From positions 2,356,001 to 2,420,000 of the forward strand of contig NZ_CP100762.1 of assembly GCF_024296665.1 (NCBI RefSeq): a stretch of DNA of 64,000 nucleotides, given 5' to 3'. The DNA is from Salinilacihabitans rarus. Lineage in GTDB: Archaea > Halobacteriota > Halobacteria > Halobacteriales > Natrialbaceae. How positions within the stretch are numbered: the stretch's first letter is position 1; each line of letters begins with the position of its first letter. This document shows, piece after piece, positions 49,959-57,550 of the stretch. The notes under the pieces were generated by a model. It had not been told where the DNA came from. It ran no database searches and saw only the letters and a program-made list of their open reading frames with translations. The translations under genes and the position numbers were made by a program.

Positions 49959-51572
49959 TCAACTGAACTTCTGGACCGTCACGTCGAGCGTGTCGAGGTC
50001 GACGATCGGGGCGTAGCCGGCGTCGGGATCGATGTTGACGCTCCTCTGGAAGTCCGTCTGGGCCTGCCAGCACCCCGAGTTGATCGCGAGCACGTTGTGG
50101 TACTTCCCGAAGCCGAGTTTGTGGACGTGGCCGGTGTGGAAGACGTCGGGCACCTCGTCGATGACGAGGTAATCTTTCTCCTCGGGGGCGAGGCGAGTGT
50201 GGCCGCCGAACTGCGGGGCGACGTGGCGTTTCTTGAGCAGGTGGTACATCGCCTCGTGGGGCTCGTCGTAGCTGGCTTTCTCCGCGGGGAGTTCGGCGAT
50301 CACCTCGTCGAGCGAGACCCCGTGGTACATCAGGACGGAGACGCCCTCGACGGTGACGGTCGAGGGGTTGCTCACGATCCGGGCGTCGTGGGCGGACATG
50401 ATCTCGCGCAGTTCCTCGTCGAAGCCGGGCTGGGGCTCCGCGAGTCGCACGGCGTCGTGGTTGCCCGGGATCATCACGATCTCGAGGTCGCCGGGCACCT
50501 GCTTGAGGTACTCGTTGAACGCCCGGTACTGGTCGTAGATGTCGACGATGTCGAGTTCCTCGTCCTGGTTCGGGTAGACGCCGACCCCCTCGACCATGTC
50601 GCCCGCGATCAGGAGGTACTCGACGTGCTGGGCCTGCTCCGTGTGGAGCCAGTCGGCAAACCGGTTCCAGGCGTCGTGCATGAACTCCTCGCTGCCGACG
50701 TGAACGTCGCTGATCAGCGCCGCCTGCACGTGGCGGTCGGCCGTCGACGGCTCGTGGGTCCGGGGGACGTCCGGGAAGTACATCGAGTCGACGAACGCGA
50801 TCCCGGAGTCGTCCGAGAGGGTCCCCTCCATCGCGAGGGCCTCGTCGCAGAGCAACTCGTCGACGAGGTCGACGTACTCGCGGTCTTTCATCACCAGCCA
50901 CGGGAACGTCCCGGTGGCGTCCTCGAGTTCGATCAGCCAGTGGCCGCTGGCGGTCGAGCGGACGTCGTTGACCAGCCCGACCATCGCGACCTCGCTGCCG
51001 CCGGGCATCGACTCGATCGACGTCGCCGGCCGGTGGTTGACCCGGCCCCGGAGCTTCGAGCCGAGACGTTCGAGGCGGTCCCGGAAGACGGAGACGAAGT
51101 CCTCGTACTCGCCCGTCCCGGTGCTCTCGCCGGTCATGTCGTTCGCGATTTCGAGCGACCGCCGGGACGGATCGCCCGACCGCTCGAACGACTCCGGACC
51201 GCCGGCGGCCGCCGCCGCGGCCGCTCCCGCCGTCGAAGACCCCCTCGTTTCAACTGGAGATTCGTTCCCGTTTTCGGGAGACGGTGTGGCGTCGGTTCCA
51301 GTCGAAACGGGGGGGTCGGCGGGCGCATCGGAGGGGGACCGTTCCGCGGGCGATGCGGCCGCGGCGGCCGCCCCGGCGTCGGCGCCGTCGAGCACCGAGC
51401 GGACGTGGTCGGTCGTGACGACGAGGCCGTCCTCGGGGGCGGCGTCGACGACGCGATCGAGGGTCCGGCCGGGGTCGTCCGCCGCGGCGATGAGCGTCAC
51501 CGCCTCGCGCTCGGCGTTGTAGCCGCGGCTCGTGAGTTCCCTGACGATCCGGGCAGACCCCTCCAGTGGCAC
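49959..51572 (-). CDS. polB: DNA polymerase D small subunit (DP1, 3'-5' exonuclease)
   Basis: 537-aa proofreading subunit of the archaeal replicative polymerase D. The C-terminal calcineurin-like phosphodiesterase motifs are all visible: DVHVG, GDMVEG, GNHDAVR, YHG and GHVHKLG, preceded by an OB-like domain (EVAMVGLVNDVRSTASGHWLIELEDATGTFPWLV). Residues 63-150 are a low-complexity Ala/Ser/Pro linker containing SPVETRG (105-111) and PPVSTGT (87-93), which are the translations of two ORB-like DNA motifs. Start GTG 51572 gives MPLEGSARIVRELTSRGYNAE, the usual family N-terminus; an in-frame GTG five codons upstream is possible. Confidence 0.94.
   Translation of the reverse strand: MPLEGSARIVRELTSRGYNAEREAVTLIAAADDPGRTLDRVVDAAPEDGLVVTTDHVRSVLDGADAGAAAAAASPAERSPSDAPADPPVSTGTDATPSPENGNESPVETRGSSTAGAAAAAAAGGPESFERSGDPSRRSLEIANDMTGESTGTGEYEDFVSVFRDRLERLGSKLRGRVNHRPATSIESMPGGSEVAMVGLVNDVRSTASGHWLIELEDATGTFPWLVMKDREYVDLVDELLCDEALAMEGTLSDDSGIAFVDSMYFPDVPRTHEPSTADRHVQAALISDVHVGSEEFMHDAWNRFADWLHTEQAQHVEYLLIAGDMVEGVGVYPNQDEELDIVDIYDQYRAFNEYLKQVPGDLEIVMIPGNHDAVRLAEPQPGFDEELREIMSAHDARIVSNPSTVTVEGVSVLMYHGVSLDEVIAELPAEKASYDEPHEAMYHLLKKRHVAPQFGGHTRLAPEEKDYLVIDEVPDVFHTGHVHKLGFGKYHNVLAINSGCWQAQTDFQRSVNIDPDAGYAPIVDLDTLDVTVQKFS
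51241..51260 (+). other. ORB-like motif inside polB (C-string left)
   Basis: CCCCTCGTTTCAACTGGAGA matches the core of the two origin boxes (TTTCAACTGGAGA) with the C-string on the left. It lies in the coding sequence of the PolD small subunit and faces the inverted motif at 51294. Confidence 0.7.
51294..51315 (-). other. ORB-like motif inside polB (G-string right)
   Basis: GTTCCAGTCGAAACGGGGGG is an ORB-like dyad plus G-string on the plus strand, inverted relative to the motif at 51241 and 33 bp away. A four-base stem with TTTT loop lies between them. Confidence 0.65.
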
Positions 51573-51664
51573 GGTATTCGCATTCACGAGCGGCGAGAAA
51601 AGGGTGGCGAATGCCGGTGGGACGAACAGAAGGTTGATTGTCGGCCCCGGCAAAGCGGGTGGCA

Positions 51665-52621
51665 ATGAGCGGTCACGACGCCGACGGTCCCTCCGACTCG
51701 GACGACCGGACGGACCGTCGGACGGGCGACGCGGAGTCGACGGACGAACCCGGGGAGTCGCGGTCGGCCGACGCCCGATCCAACGGGGGGCTCGACCGCG
51801 GGGACTCCCGGCCGAAACCGGCGCCCTCCGCGTCCGCGCGAGACGACCCCGTCTCGATCGAGGAGGACGGCTACGTCCGCTGGTTCCTCCGGACCGACGA
51901 CGGGACGGTCGTCGCGATTCGCGACGTGCTGAGCAGCGTCGCCATCGTCGCCATCATCGGCCTCGTGCTGTTCGGCGTCAGCGGCATCTGGCCGCCGCTC
52001 GTCGCCGTCGAGAGCGGGAGCATGGAGCCGCACATGTCGCGGGGGGACCTGATCTTCGTCGTCGACGAGGGTCGGTTCGTCGGCGACGGCGCCGTCGACG
52101 GCACCGGCATCGTCACCCTCGAAGACGCCGAGGACGACGGCTACGACAAGTTCGACGAACCGGGCGACGTCATCATCTTCGTTCCGAACGGGAACGAGGC
52201 AGAGACGCCGGTGATCCACCGGGCGCACTTCTGGGTGGAGGAGGGCGACAACTGGGTCGACGGGAAGGCCGAACCCGCGTTCGTCAACGGGGCGAGTTGC
52301 GACGACGTGCTGGCCTGTCCTGCCCCGCACGACGGGTTCGTCACGAAAGGCGACGCGAACCCCGGCTACGACCAGTACGCCGGCGGGGGCGGCGCACAGA
52401 CCACCGTCGTCAAGCCCGAGTGGGTCACCGGCAAGGCGATGTTCCGCATCCCGTGGCTCGGGCACATCCGGCTGACGTTCGAAGATGCGGTGAACCGTCT
52501 CGAACTCACGACCGGCACCGCGGGAAGCCCGCTGGAGGAGCCGGCGACGCTCGAAGTCGGCCTCGTCGGGGCGGCAAGCGCCGTCGCGCTGATCGGCGGT
52601 CGGCGGCCCGGCCACCGGTGA
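51665..52621 (+). CDS. Sec11-type signal peptidase I
   Basis: 318-aa membrane peptidase removing Sec signal peptides. A charged disordered N-terminus of about 65 residues precedes the membrane helix (VAIVAIIGLVLFGVSGIWPPLVAVE). The catalytic Ser119 sits in ESGSMEPHM, the His in TPVIHRAHFW (archaeal Sec11 uses Ser-His-Asp rather than Ser-Lys), and the Asp in VTKGDANPGYDQY. A second hydrophobic segment near the C-terminus is visible. It is divergent from polB and convergent with orc1; this trio near the origin is conserved in several haloarchaea as far as I recall. Confidence 0.94.
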   Translation: MSGHDADGPSDSDDRTDRRTGDAESTDEPGESRSADARSNGGLDRGDSRPKPAPSASARDDPVSIEEDGYVRWFLRTDDGTVVAIRDVLSSVAIVAIIGLVLFGVSGIWPPLVAVESGSMEPHMSRGDLIFVVDEGRFVGDGAVDGTGIVTLEDAEDDGYDKFDEPGDVIIFVPNGNEAETPVIHRAHFWVEEGDNWVDGKAEPAFVNGASCDDVLACPAPHDGFVTKGDANPGYDQYAGGGGAQTTVVKPEWVTGKAMFRIPWLGHIRLTFEDAVNRLELTTGTAGSPLEEPATLEVGLVGAASAVALIGGRRPGHR

Positions 52622-52669: not shown

Positions 52670-54319
52670 TCAGTTCTCGAAGCGGGCCTGCACGAACGGC
52701 TGGACGTCGTCGATGTCCGACAGCCGCGAGTCCGAGACGAGGACGGCCTCCGTTTCTTCGAGCGGGACCGAGAGGCTGATCTCCTTGGTGCGGCCGTAGC
52801 GGCCCTTCGAGACGACGACGGCGTTGACGATGCCGAGCATGTCGAGTTCGCTGATGAGGTCCGTCACGCGTCGCTGCGTGAGGACGTCGGCGTCGATCTC
52901 CTCGCAGAGGCGCTTGTAGATGTTGTAGACCTCGCCGGTGTTGATGTTGTGGACGCCGTTCTTTTCGAGCAGAATCGTAGCGAACAGGACGATCTTCGAC
53001 TGCGTCGGGAGGGTGCGGACGACCTCGACGACGCGGTCGAGTTCGATCTTGTCCTGGGCCTGCCGGACGTGCTCCTCGTCGACCGTCTCCGCCTGGGCGC
53101 GCTCGGCGAGTTCGCCCGCCGTCCGCAGGAGGTCGAGCGCCCGGCGGGCGTCGCCGTGCTCCTGGGCGGCAAACGCCGCACACAGCGGGATCACGTCCGG
53201 CGAGAGCGCGCCCTCCTTGAACGCGACCTCCGAGCGGTGCTGGAGGATGTCGCGCAACTGGTTTGCGTCGTACGGCGGGAAGACGATCTCCTCCTCGCCC
53301 AGCGAGGACTTTACCCGGGGGTCGAGGAAGTCGGTGAACTTGAGGTCGTTCGAGATGCCGATGATCGACACCCGCGAGTTCTCGAGTTCGGAGTTCATCC
53401 GCGAGAGGTTGTAGAGGGTGTCGTCGCCGCTCTTCTCGACCAGTTTGTCGATCTCGTCGAGCATGATGACGACCACGCGCTCGGAGTAGTCGACCGCGTC
53501 GAAGAAGACGTTGTAGACCCGGTCGGTCGGCCACCCGGTCATCGGCACCTCCTCGAAGGAGTCGCGGTCGGCCTCCAGCGACTCGATCCGCTCGTCGATC
53601 TCCTCGGTCGACGAGAACGGCGTGTCGGCGAGGGGGTGGGCCGGCCCCTCCGGCGAGACGCCGTCGCTGTCGCCGCCGTCAGACCCCTCCGTTTCAACTG
53701 GAGAATCGCCCGACAGCAGGTCGACGGATCGACTATCCGGTCCGGAACTCGGGTACAAATCCTCGTCGATCGTCGGCGGCGACCCCGGGGCGTCCTCGAA
53801 CGCTTCGACCGCCTCGGCGAGCGATTCGAGCGAGGCGACGCGGTCGTCGATCACGCGCTCGTTCTCCTCGATGAACTTGTTCGCAAGCTGGGCGAGTACC
53901 CGGTACTGCGTGTCGGTGACCTCGCAGTTGATGTACTCGACGTCGCAGGGGACGCTGTACTTCTTCGAGGTGCTCTCGAGTTCCTTGCTGACGAACTTCG
54001 CGCTCGCCGTCTTTCCCGTCCCGGTCTTGCCGTAGATCAGGATGTTCGAGGGCGTCTCCCCGCGGAGCGCGGCGACGAGGATCGTCGCCATCTTGTTGAT
54101 CTGATCGTTCCGGTGGGGAAGTTCGTGGGGCGTGTACGAGGGACGCAGGACTTCCTTGTTCTCGAAGATCGGTTCGCCGCTGAGCAGGTCGTCGAACAGC
54201 CCCTGGTTGGACTCCTCGCCGCCGACGTCGGCCCCCTCGACGCTCGCCGCGAACCCGGGAGAGTCACCGAGGTCGACGTCTCGACCTGAATCCGTCGTGT
54301 GTGGTTCCTCGTCGGACAT
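52670..54319 (-). CDS. orc1: Orc1/Cdc6 replication initiator
   Basis: 549-aa AAA+ initiator that binds ORB sequences and recruits MCM. Walker A GKTGTGKT is at 97-104, Walker B VVIMLDEID at 283-291, and the sensor 2 region is present. A C-terminal winged-helix domain (ILLEKNGVHNINTGEVYNIYKRLCEEI, then VTDLISELDMLGIVNAVVVSKGRYGRTKEISL) makes the DNA contact. Between the two ATPase motifs is an acidic low-complexity insertion of about 90 residues (about 175-260), giving a longer protein than the usual 400 or so. Within it SPVETEG (206-212) is the translation of an ORB-like motif. The gene lies immediately left of the origin and is transcribed away from it. Confidence 0.97.
   Translation of the reverse strand: MSDEEPHTTDSGRDVDLGDSPGFAASVEGADVGGEESNQGLFDDLLSGEPIFENKEVLRPSYTPHELPHRNDQINKMATILVAALRGETPSNILIYGKTGTGKTASAKFVSKELESTSKKYSVPCDVEYINCEVTDTQYRVLAQLANKFIEENERVIDDRVASLESLAEAVEAFEDAPGSPPTIDEDLYPSSGPDSRSVDLLSGDSPVETEGSDGGDSDGVSPEGPAHPLADTPFSSTEEIDERIESLEADRDSFEEVPMTGWPTDRVYNVFFDAVDYSERVVVIMLDEIDKLVEKSGDDTLYNLSRMNSELENSRVSIIGISNDLKFTDFLDPRVKSSLGEEEIVFPPYDANQLRDILQHRSEVAFKEGALSPDVIPLCAAFAAQEHGDARRALDLLRTAGELAERAQAETVDEEHVRQAQDKIELDRVVEVVRTLPTQSKIVLFATILLEKNGVHNINTGEVYNIYKRLCEEIDADVLTQRRVTDLISELDMLGIVNAVVVSKGRYGRTKEISLSVPLEETEAVLVSDSRLSDIDDVQPFVQARFEN
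53684..53704 (+). other. ORB-like motif inside the orc1 coding sequence
   Basis: CCCCTCCGTTTCAACTGGAG matches the origin boxes in core and C-string. A weak inverted partner (TCCGGTCCGGAACTCGGG) begins about 32 bp to the right at 53737. Confidence 0.65.
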
Positions 54320-54333
54320 GCGTCGTACGCGTA

Positions 54334-54354
54334 CCCCCTCGTTTCGTGTGGAAA
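54334..54354 (+). other. ORB1-like, orc1-proximal degenerate box
   Basis: CCCCCTCGTTTCGTGTGGAA keeps the C-string and dyad outline but differs in the centre. It lies 15 bp ahead of the orc1 start, inside its untranslated leader, suggesting autoregulation. A looser candidate (CCAGTTGATGCAAACGAACC) lies at 54434. Confidence 0.6.
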
Positions 54355-54861
54355 TCCGAACCCGAAAGACGACACATCGTGCGTATCAGGCCTCGAAGAA
54401 GCCATGTCGGGAAAGCACGTCTTCCCTCCGGGTCCAGTTGATGCAAACGAACCAGAGGAAGACCTAGGCAATAAAGGCTTCCCTTCAACGCGGGTGAAGG
54501 TGTCGGTCGCGAGCGTCCCGATCCGAACGGGACGGTGAGCGAAACGAGACGGGAGGCAGAGTGGATGCGCCGGAACCTCCGGACGGAAGAGCAGTCGGAC
54601 GGTGCCGGTCGGGACTCGTCGATTGCACACGCGGGACGCAGGACGTCGCGGAAACCGTGGAACCCCACAGAAGCGTCGGATTCGAGGAGTCCCGTGGTTT
54701 TCGTGGCTCTCGCGAAGCGCGCCCGTAACCGTGCGAGCCCCGTCGCGGAGACGACGGCGGCGACCCGGGAGCGTCGCGAGGACGGGTGGGACGTCAGCAG
54801 AAGTCTTGGAGGAGACGAACCGGGACGCCGCGTGGGTCGTGGTACCGACGGCCGCTCTAGC

Positions 54862-54888
54862 CCCCCACCCCTTCGTTTCAACTGGAGA
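54862..54888 (+). other. ORB2, origin recognition box
   Basis: 27-bp box with a C-string followed by TTCGTTTCAACTGGAGA. It is identical, in inverted orientation, to the box at 55182. C-string points away from, dyad end towards, the AT-rich element. Confidence 0.88.
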
Positions 54889-54895
54889 GCCACGA

Positions 54896-54917
54896 GGGAG
54901 GGGGTGGGGGGGAGGGG
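54896..54917 (+). other. G-quadruplex-type G-run tract
   Basis: Runs of 3, 5, 7 and 4 G separated by single A, T and A residues lie directly between ORB2 and the AT-rich element. This satisfies the standard four-run, short-loop quadruplex pattern. Confidence 0.7.
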
Positions 54918-55060
54918 CGTTCTAGTATGGAAGGTTTTATATCACCGTAGTAGAAACAAGATCCGCACTCCTAGCAAGATAGAACTTTTACTAGAGAGGT
55001 TGGATTTAGTTACTAGAGCGTACTAGAAACCGTTCGCTCAGCCGGTCGAGTTACTAGACC
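54918..55060. other. AT-rich duplex unwinding element
   Basis: About 140 bp far richer in A and T than any neighbouring stretch (GGTTTTATATCACC, AGATAGAACTTTTACTAG, TTGGATTTAGTTACTAG), flanked by inverted ORBs. It is the probable site of initial strand opening. Confidence 0.8.
54921..55058. repeat. Repeated TACTAGA heptamers in the unwinding element
   Basis: TACTAGA occurs at 54989, 55011, 55021 and 55052, and its reverse complement TCTAGTA at 54921. CTAG is generally rare in such genomes, so five copies in 140 bp stand out. Confidence 0.75.
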
Positions 55061-55181
55061 TCCGTCTGCCGCCGATATCTCCGTCGAGACGCTCCAGCAC
55101 GGTCGTTCGACCCGAAATCGCGGCGGTCCCGTTACCGGCGTCGTGTCGAACCACCACTCTCACCCGTCGGGCCCTCGTCCG

Positions 55182-55208
55182 TCTCCAGTTGAAACGAAGG
55201 GGTGGGGG
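55182..55208 (-). other. ORB3, origin recognition box
   Basis: Reverse complement of ORB2 over 27 bp (TCTCCAGTTGAAACGAAGGG followed by GTGGGGG). Together with ORB2 it brackets the AT-rich element, about 290 bp apart. Confidence 0.88.
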
Positions 55209-55263
55209 TGTTCCGGCCGGGACGTCTCACGGTGGCACGCCACAGACGCCACGGACAGGGCAT

Positions 55264-55338
55264 CGACCCGAATCCGCCTGCTGTCCCCCGGCCTGAATCC
55301 GCACGTCGTCCCCCGACCTGAATCCGCCCGTTGTCCCG
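55264..55338. repeat. Three 25-bp tandem repeats beside ORB3
   Basis: Units start at 55264, 55289 and 55314; all share TGAATCCGC or CGAATCCGC followed by a C-run. The 13-mer CGACCTGAATCCG of the third unit also occurs at 54282-54294 in the 5' end of orc1. Confidence 0.8.
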
Positions 55339-55482
55339 TCTCACTCCCTGCAGCGACGCGAATCGCTCGCCTCCCGGCTCTCGTCCGGCCCGTTCGACGG
55401 CACACACCGGCCGGCCGGCTCCCGTCGTCACCCTCTCCGTGACTGTCGTTCGTGTTGAATTGTTAAAACGTCTGACGTAGGC

Positions 55483-55487
55483 TTAAG
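55483..55487 (+). promoter_or_regulatory. TATA element for the oap operon
   Basis: TTAAG in GGCTTAAGTG about 55 bp ahead of oapA, so the transcript has a leader of about 30 nt. A Shine-Dalgarno GGAGG at 55529-55533 is 8 nt from the ATG, which fixes the start at 55542 rather than the GTG at 55524. Confidence 0.5.
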
Positions 55488-55541
55488 TGAACTCGGCTCA
55501 GTAGTACGTTCAGACGCACTCTCGTGCCGGAGGACCCAAGG

Positions 55542-56180
55542 ATGGGACTGTTCACAGAACTCAAAGATAGTATCTCTCGCGTTACGGACCGCCTGTTCTC
55601 CGCGGAGGAGCCGAAACGGATCGGTATCTACGGGCCGCCGAACGCGGGGAAGACGACACTCGCCAACCGTATCGCCCGCGACTGGACCGGCGACGTGGTC
55701 GGCGCCGAGAGCCGCATTCCACACGAAACGCGACGTGCCCGCCGCAAGGAGAACGTCGAGATCGAACGCGACGGGAAGACGGTGACCATCGACATCGTCG
55801 ACACGCCCGGGGTGACCACCAAGGTCGACTACGAGGAGTTCACCGACGAGATGGACAAGGAGGACGCGATCCGTCGGTCGAGGGAAGCGACCGAGGGGGT
55901 CGCCGAGGCGATGCACTGGCTGCGCGAGGACGTCGACGGCGTCGTCTACGTCCTCGACAGCGCCGAGGACCCCATCACGCAGGTCAACACGATGCTGATC
56001 GGGATCATCGAGTCCCGCGACCTCCCGGTGCTCATCTTCGCGAACAAGATCGACCTCGAGGAGTCGAGCGTCAAGCGCATCGAGGACGCCTTCCCGCAAC
56101 ACCGGACCGTCCCCCTGTCGGCGAAAGAAGGTGACAACATGGACGAAGTGTACGACAGCATCGCGGAGTACTTCGGGTGA
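55542..56180 (+). CDS. oapA: Era-like GTPase, origin-associated protein OapA
   Basis: 212-aa GTP-binding protein next to the origin in haloarchaea and named for that position in Haloferax volcanii. G1 GPPNAGKTT is at residues 31-39, G3 DTPG at 87-90, and G4 NKID at 168-171. It has no KH domain after the GTPase, unlike bacterial Era. Its function in replication is untested beyond linkage; a ribosome or RNA role is equally open. First gene of the oapABC operon. Confidence 0.93.
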   Translation: MGLFTELKDSISRVTDRLFSAEEPKRIGIYGPPNAGKTTLANRIARDWTGDVVGAESRIPHETRRARRKENVEIERDGKTVTIDIVDTPGVTTKVDYEEFTDEMDKEDAIRRSREATEGVAEAMHWLREDVDGVVYVLDSAEDPITQVNTMLIGIIESRDLPVLIFANKIDLEESSVKRIEDAFPQHRTVPLSAKEGDNMDEVYDSIAEYFG

Positions 56181-56186
56181 GCCCAG

Positions 56187-56588
56187 ATGCCTGAAGCAAC
56201 GGAAGCGGACGACCTCGACCCCGGTGACGGCGTCAGGATCGATCTGATCAGTTCGGAGCGGATGGAGGGGTTGGCGACCATGGAGAAGATCCGGATGATC
56301 CTCGACGGAGTCCACGAGGGCAACATCGTCATCCTCGAGGAGGGGCTGACGCCGGACGAGGAGAGCAGATTGATCGAGGCGACGATGGCCGAGATCACTC
56401 CCGACGAGTTCAACGGGATCGAGATCGAGACGTACCCCAAAGCCGGCTCGCGCGAGTCTTCGCTGATCGGACGTCTCATGGGCGGCGACGGCGGGGCGAA
56501 CAAACTCACCGTGATCGGCCCGGCGAACCAGATCCAGACGCTCCACAAGGACGAAACGCTCATCAGCGCGCTCGTCTCCCGACAATAA
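56187..56588 (+). CDS. oapB: DUF2073 family, origin-associated protein OapB
   Basis: 133-aa protein of the widely conserved archaeal DUF2073 family, with KIRMILDGVHEGNIVILEEGLTPDEESRLIEATMAEI and GIEIETYPKAG, and a C-terminal strand NKLTVIGPANQIQTLHKDETLISALV. It starts 6 bp after oapA and its TAA overlaps the ATG of oapC by 1 bp, so all three are translated in sequence. Confidence 0.92.
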   Translation: MPEATEADDLDPGDGVRIDLISSERMEGLATMEKIRMILDGVHEGNIVILEEGLTPDEESRLIEATMAEITPDEFNGIEIETYPKAGSRESSLIGRLMGGDGGANKLTVIGPANQIQTLHKDETLISALVSRQ

Positions 56589-57457
56589 TGCCCCACCAGT
56601 GTACGAACTGCGGCCGTCGATTCCCCGACGGCTCGAAGGAGATGCTCGCGGGGTGTCCCGACTGCGGCGGCAACAAGTTCCAGTTTACCCCCAAGCGGTC
56701 GGATCGGGCGGAGCAGTCGAAGCGGTCGGGGGACGCCGCGACCGACCCCGACCGCCAGTCGCGCTCGCCCGACTCCGGCCCGTCGCCGTCGAACGAGTCG
56801 TCGGCCGGGGCCTCGACCGAGGCCGACCGGGGCGGCCCGGGCGGACGCGCCCGATTCGCGGACGACGGCGACCGCTCCCGGCCGTCGACGGACGGCGCGG
56901 ACGCCCGGCGCTCTCGCACCTCGCCGGGGGAGTTCTCGGAGTGGCCCGAGACCGCCCGTCGGCCGGAGGATCGCGAGGGGTCGACGTCGCAGCGCGCCGC
57001 CGACCGCTCCGCCTCCGCTCGCCGCGATCCGGATCGGTCCCCGTCGCGCGGCCGCGACGCGGACCGCCGACCGCCGACGTCGGGCACGGAACGATCGCCC
57101 GCGGGCGAACCCGAGTCGGAGAACGACGCTCAGGCTGACGCCCGGAGCGAGGTCGTCTCGTCCGACGAACTGCCCTCGCGGTCGGAGCGGTCCGGCGGAC
57201 CGGACGTGGCGGGCGGCCCCGGCGTGGCGCCCGAGCGCGGCCGGGTCGTCAGCGAACCCTCGTCCGACGAACGCCCGTCGATCGACCAGCTACGCGAGGA
57301 ACTCAACGACCAGTTCGAGAGCATCAAGATCGTCCGCCCCGGCGAGTACGAACTCAACCTGATGGAACTGTACGACCGCGAGGAGTACATCGTCTCACTG
57401 CAGGAGGACGGCCGGTACGTCATCGACGTCCCCGAGTCCTGGCGCGGCGGCGAGTAA
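56588..57457 (+). CDS. oapC: Zinc-finger origin-associated protein OapC
   Basis: 289-aa Halobacteria-restricted protein. An N-terminal zinc ribbon uses Cys5, Cys8, Cys23 and Cys26 (CTNCGRRFPDG, GCPDCGGNKF). About 190 residues of Arg/Ser/Asp/Pro-rich disorder follow, and a conserved C-terminal domain is visible: QFESIKIVRPGEYELNLMELYDREEYIVSLQEDGRYVIDVPESW. This layout suits a DNA- or RNA-tethering adaptor. Third gene of the oap operon. Confidence 0.92.
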   Translation: MPHQCTNCGRRFPDGSKEMLAGCPDCGGNKFQFTPKRSDRAEQSKRSGDAATDPDRQSRSPDSGPSPSNESSAGASTEADRGGPGGRARFADDGDRSRPSTDGADARRSRTSPGEFSEWPETARRPEDREGSTSQRAADRSASARRDPDRSPSRGRDADRRPPTSGTERSPAGEPESENDAQADARSEVVSSDELPSRSERSGGPDVAGGPGVAPERGRVVSEPSSDERPSIDQLREELNDQFESIKIVRPGEYELNLMELYDREEYIVSLQEDGRYVIDVPESWRGGE

Positions 57458-57527: not shown

Positions 57528-57550
57528 ACCCCCTCAGTTCCGGTGGAACT
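57528..57550 (+). other. ORB-like motif downstream of oapC (C-string left)
   Basis: ACCCCCTCAGTTCCGGTGGA, the classical dyad form of an ORB, with C-string on the left, in the spacer after oapC. Confidence 0.6.

Follow-up and report, generated by a model that had tools for sequence, protein, structure and literature searches.

Predicted Orc1 boxes around a haloarchaeal oriC1, including a conserved divergent pair inside the polD1 coding sequence

In bacteria, dnaA autoregulation and datA place initiator boxes at the promoter of the initiator gene and at a separate high-affinity locus. How initiation at oriC1 is limited or timed in archaea is little understood, the known examples being an enhancer repeat and one titration region. 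Origins of the oriC1 type have already been described for haloarchaea (PMC3936714, PMC3528665), and those of H. hispanica (oriC1-cdc6A), H. volcanii and Halobacterium (orc7) have the same inverted ORBs with G-strings, AT-rich element and adjoining orc1 as the locus described here. Boxes lying outside an origin proper, and maybe affecting initiator availability, are known from H. hispanica oriC2D, in which 11 boxes for Cdc6E are clustered within 722 bp of intergenic DNA (PMC3936714). The comparative survey of haloarchaeal origins covered only the intergenic regions beside orc genes (PMC3528665).

We analysed a 64,000-nt stretch of the Salinilacihabitans rarus chromosome (the window), one segment of which an earlier note had read as a complete chromosomal origin, with two identical 27-bp boxes in inverted orientation at 54862 and 55182 that flank a G-run and AT-rich DNA next to orc1 and oapABC. 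That reading is borne out: the inverted ORBs with their G-strings, the AT-rich element, orc1 and the oap genes are all present, a GTPase gene occupying the oapA position. The count of two boxes holds for the origin ORBs but is too low for the locus, which has four more strong boxes, three of them intragenic. The features of the locus, with the boxes as predicted, are as follows.

49959–51665, minus strand: polD1, encoding DP1, the smaller subunit of replicative DNA polymerase D (NF003116, PF04042)
51239–51260, minus strand: intragenic ORB of polD1, sense-strand arm, encoding SPVETRG (32.2 bits)
51295–51316, plus strand: intragenic ORB of polD1, antisense arm, where the gene reads PVSTGT (29.7 bits; offset of 56 bp from its partner)
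51638–52621, plus strand: signal-peptidase-like gene between polD1 and orc1 (weak match to TIGR02228, 48.7 bits against a cutoff of 51.85)
52670–54319, minus strand: orc1, initiator gene of the oriC1 type (PF09079, PF22703, NF001625)
53683–53704, minus strand: ORB within the orc1 coding sequence, in a disordered insertion, encoding SPVETEG (32.4 bits)
54333–54354, minus strand: ORB upstream of orc1, on its sense strand, at −35 relative to the start codon (33.4 bits)
54862–54888, minus strand: origin ORB, left copy with G-string (36.6 bits)
54894–54917, no strand: G-run just inside the left ORB, at the left edge of the AT-rich element (sequence; PMC3936714)
54919–55057, no strand: unwinding element, AT-rich (57.6% AT) and carrying six CTAG repeats (AT rank; CTAG enrichment)
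55182–55208, plus strand: origin ORB, right copy with G-string, exact inverse of 54862–54888 (36.6 bits)
55542–56180, plus strand: small GTPase in the OapA position, before oapB and oapC (PF01926)
56187–56588, plus strand: oapB (PF09846)
56588–57457, plus strand: oapC (PF09845)

The two origin ORBs are perfect reverse complements of each other over 27 bp (TCTCCAGTTGAAACGAAGGGGTGGGGG). Their 19-nt core, TCCAGTTGAAACGAAGGGG, occurs five times in the window with at most 3 mismatches, compared with 0.00 times in 100 dinucleotide shuffles; because the shuffles never give the core, its recurrence is not due to chance. The first 13 bases of the core, TCCAGTTGAAACG, are found exactly four times in the entire 3.62-Mb genome, all inside 4 kb. 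Unlike the haloarchaeal oriC1s named above, this one shows half of the internal G-rich inverted repeat (the enhancer), with the left half alone visible at 54894–54917; half versions have been reported for some haloarchaea (PMC3936714). In AT content, the unwinding element ranks second among the 63,861 windows of 139 bp, and the one window ahead of it, at 54920, covers this same element. An inflection in GC skew, which the earlier note had proposed as a check, is found as well: cumulative skew over 464 kb has its maximum at window position 55018, between the two origin ORBs, by a narrow margin on a broad plateau, with the G−C excess per kb going from +6.9 in the 200 kb on the left to −1.6 in the 200 kb on the right. 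This maximum supports the origin and is no proof by itself.

The genes around the origin fit the same picture. The best solved relatives of the orc1 product are 2qby_A (E 8e-109) and 2v1u_A (E 3e-102), and, judged from its sequence, the initiator encoded beside oriC1 is of the Orc1/Cdc6-1 type. Downstream of the origin lie oapB and oapC, as in haloarchaeal oriC1 systems, and an OapB match is present in 145 of 145 genomes of the class. For polD1, the probable start is a GTG at 51572. An oriC1-like layout at orc1 was recovered across the class Halobacteria, and the segment is well supported as an ordinary haloarchaeal oriC1; the origin itself is textbook rather than new.

Within the unwinding element, CTAG occurs at 54922, 54971, 54991, 55013, 55023 and 55054, and half of all CTAG in the window (7 of 14) lie within 200 bp at this element. 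The richest 120 bp of the unwinding elements from 104 genomes together hold 282 CTAG against 39.9 expected; the density is 22.6 per kb in the element compared with 0.38 in the surrounding DNA (83 of 104 genomes). The repeats have a consensus near TCTAGTAA, and in the window's family they are separated by gaps of about 10, 20–22, 31 and 49 bp. The Sulfolobus ucm/UBP system likewise has a short conserved motif in the unwinding region between two ORBs (PMC12141716), whereas the haloarchaeal element has CTAG repeats instead; by analogy, these repeats are possibly the haloarchaeal counterpart of ucm. Beside them, at about 54927–54970, a further conserved stretch resembling GTGCGGATnTTGTTT and ATAAAACCttCC was seen by eye in several families, towards the ORB away from the right-hand side of orc1.

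The boxes beyond the origin were scored with a 22-bp model trained on 378 distinct sites upstream of haloarchaeal orc1 genes, with no deep-intragenic sites used. In the window, the model gives six strong matches, at 36.6, 36.6, 33.4, 32.4, 32.2 and 29.7 bits, followed by a seventh at 15.5 bits, whereas 30 Markov sequences of 64 kb reach 8.0 bits at most. Under this origin-only model, the two arms within polD1 compare with a mean of 35.8 bits for origin sites. The seventh match is a weak ORB-like site at 57528–57549, just 3′ of oapC. Outside the window, the genome holds a few further matches, one of them strong and 35 kb away.

Two of the extra boxes belong to orc1. The upstream box (sense strand, 15–160 bp before the start) is present at 103 of 137 orc1 loci, with 90 of the placements between −40 and −21. 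Many haloarchaeal genes are transcribed without a leader; if orc1 is one of them, the box would cover its core promoter, which suggests orc1 autorepression. The box inside the gene is mainly a trait of the window's family, in which 22 of 32 orc1 genes have a match above 15 bits, versus 3 of 80 elsewhere.

The pair within polD1 is distributed more widely. Our sample comprised 156 distinct, related haloarchaeal genomes of nine families, 67 of them from the window's own family. At a threshold of 15 bits, both arms are present in 85 of the 156, one arm in 52 and neither in 19, so that 137 genomes have at least one. Four families (f2, f4, f6 and f8) often have one strong arm or none, and the pair is therefore not indispensable. 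The arms diverge, with their G-ends outward and 34 bp between them. Of 109 recognisable pairs, 97 have an offset of 56 bp from one arm to the other; the rest are offset by 53, 68 or 74 bp, all in frame, and this variation speaks against a strict helical phase. The pair sits in a fast-evolving disordered linker, where its distances to the conserved parts of the protein on each side take 20 and 18 distinct values (s.d. of about 10 residues). As these flanking distances vary and the offset hardly does, the linker appears to accept insertions everywhere except between the arms. Among 20 DP1 genes of other Halobacteriota, no such pair was found, and single matches above 8 bits in four loci included no in-register pair; we therefore rejected an ancient element common to non-haloarchaea.

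Across the sampled genomes, polD1 is usually found at a distance of a few kb from oriC1, with origin positions taken from OapB. The pair is nevertheless kept where the gene is 1.77 Mb (G118; 38.3 and 28.8 bits) or 1.06 Mb (G213; 23.4 and 28.8 bits) from the origin, and also at 144–195 kb (G060, G061, G111, G112, G113 and G115). The exceptions among genomes with unlinked polD1 have one arm (G021) or one arm or weak arms (G126, G160 and G205). A strict need for proximity to the origin was rejected, given this retention at distances of 0.1–1.8 Mb.

Codon usage shows the level at which the pair is selected. In 154 of 156 genes, the first 900 bp of polD1 outscore every one of 100 shuffles among synonymous codons on at least one strand; for the last 900 bp, taken as a control, this is so for 10 genes on the forward strand and 1 on the reverse, and none of the sites there exceeds 15 bits. 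Both arms carry about 1.6 bits of information at codon positions 1, 2 and 3 alike, against 0.34 in the spacer and flanks. Within the boxes, proline is encoded by CCA in 125 of 125 cases (gene-wide share 0.11), glutamate by GAA in 130 of 130 (0.29), valine by GTT in 86 of 86 (0.10), threonine by ACT in 74 of 74 (0.09) and glycine by GGA in 84 of 84 (0.13). These codon counts and information values come from sites chosen by score and thus carry some selection bias, of which the shuffle test and the C-terminal control are free. The first codon of the box changes among Ser, Ala, Thr, Val, Pro and Phe (TCT, GCT, ACT, GTT, CCT and TTT) and keeps T as its third base. Read in its two directions, the one DNA motif gives SPVET one way and VSTG the other, which are unrelated peptides. 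Position by position, the conservation of the two arms tracks the profile of the origin ORBs (r = 0.91 and 0.75). The pair is under selection as DNA, not as protein or RNA, and clearly illustrates how selection at the DNA level shapes disordered protein linkers; the best reading of the extra boxes is as predicted Orc1-binding sites under such selection inside genes.

These results bear directly on what else the pair might be. Functional linker motifs of DP1, with the DNA match as a by-product, would agree with the recurrence of the SPVET and VSTG peptides in frame in DP1 and with the occurrence of SPVETEG in orc1 as well, but are almost certainly not the explanation: third codon positions are conserved like the first and second, rare codons are kept almost invariably while the amino acids of the first codon change, and unrelated peptides arise from a single DNA motif in two orientations that synonymous shuffles lose. 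Protein-level selection was rejected as contradicted by the codon-position and synonymous-shuffle tests. Alternatively, the complementary arms, 34 nt apart, could form a long stem in polD1 mRNA, the inverted repeat working as a hairpin in translation or termination rather than as a protein-binding site in DNA. Arms from the same genome differ by 4.58 mismatches, however, compared with 4.70 ± 0.11 between genomes, a value that 15% of shuffles match or undercut; moreover, 52 genomes hold one good arm only, orc1 has a single copy of the box, and the conservation profile is that of the origin ORBs. With no covariation between the polD1 arms, the hairpin was rejected, and we regard it as highly improbable. 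If the pair were a small or dormant second origin, or served as an accessory site of MCM loading, this would account for the divergent orientation with G-ends outward that it shares with the origin ORBs, but AT makes up 0.32 of the spacer and 0.31 of the flanks, no unwinding element is present, and the arms stand just 34 bp apart. This possibility, which we consider quite improbable, was rejected for want of an AT-rich spacer between the arms.

A stronger contender, though still somewhat unlikely in our view, is that the extra boxes, the polD1 pair included, titrate Orc1 in the manner of datA or oriC2D, curbing initiation whatever gene hosts them. There is precedent in H. hispanica oriC2D, which restrains oriC2, probably through titration of Cdc6E, and does so more strongly with more boxes (PMC3936714). 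The extra boxes in the window all lie within 4 kb of oriC1 and would therefore be duplicated just after initiation, and a further strong ORB recurs 20–60 kb from oriC1 in many members of the family. On the other side, polD1 has two boxes compared with the eleven of oriC2D, and the pair has a near-fixed offset and stays in polD1 at 1–1.8 Mb from the origin, where early doubling is lost. Titration may also act alongside control of the genes. We prefer control of genes by the level of Orc1, because the boxes lie at orc1 and polD1 and are kept in polD1 after its relocation. The location within polD1 fits control of that gene and is no proof of it, since a box in a coding sequence moves along with its gene anyway.

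We consider it probable that the segment is oriC1 and that the extra Orc1 boxes beyond it form a local circuit. Orc1 from the adjacent gene would bind the inverted ORBs of oriC1, the AT-rich element between them would open, and MCM would be loaded. The local circuit would consist of the boxes in the orc1 promoter or leader and inside orc1, together with the divergent pair in the polD1 coding sequence. We infer that Orc1 binds these extra boxes because they carry the full origin-ORB consensus and because the initiator belongs to the Orc1/Cdc6-1 type; other Orc paralogues could also be the binder. Bound Orc1 may then lower or time the transcription of orc1 through the box over its likely promoter, and that of polD1 through a bound pair standing in the way of RNA polymerase. 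Such control, through which the initiator level would feed back on both the initiator itself and the replicative polymerase, is put forward tentatively. Similarly, it is plausible, if short of probable, that an Orc1 operator in the polD1 coding sequence and boxes in the orc1 promoter, accompanied in one family by the box inside orc1, are a class-wide arrangement. If this is true, disordered protein linkers carry, as a second code, a control circuit that runs from initiator to polymerase.

This arrangement differs from the described systems in several ways. As in dnaA autoregulation and datA, predicted initiator boxes occur at the likely promoter of the initiator gene and at a second locus, but the initiator and the domain of life are different, and the second site here is part of the sequence that encodes a subunit of the replicative polymerase. 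In contrast to oriC2D, we find a pair of oriC1-type boxes in an essential coding gene, with fixed spacing and class-wide occurrence. The papers on known oriC1s (PMC3936714, PMC3528665) make no mention of boxes in polD1, within orc1 or in its leader, and the polD1 pair would be missed by the comparative survey because of its restriction to intergenic regions (PMC3528665); more generally, intergenic-only surveys of origin boxes overlook conserved sites. The open-access literature on ORBs in polymerase or other coding genes, on haloarchaeal Orc1 ChIP and on Orc1 autoregulation does not describe the polD1 pair, and the extra boxes are new relative to that literature, an earlier mention elsewhere being possible. 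The pair offers a precise target, as synonymous recoding removes it and leaves the protein unchanged, and both Haloferax and Haloarcula are tractable.

Finally, further ORB-like sites were observed away from the locus. A lone, very strong ORB recurs tens of kb from oriC1 in many members of the family, at L286 2562 (genome position 2446461) and at L289–L291 and L293–L303; it is intergenic, near purO-like and old-yellow-enzyme-like genes, and has a degenerate inverted partner about 45 bp off. Three ORB-like sites in other parts of the genome, at L284 2506, L285 2548 and L288 2557, lie directly upstream of copies of a small gene whose product starts (M/V)AKYSIPDGH, two of them being identical. 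At L287, two strong and one weak ORB-like sites (2543, 2599 and 2837) occur in direct orientation between NMD3-like and HtpX-like genes, about 108 kb from oriC1.
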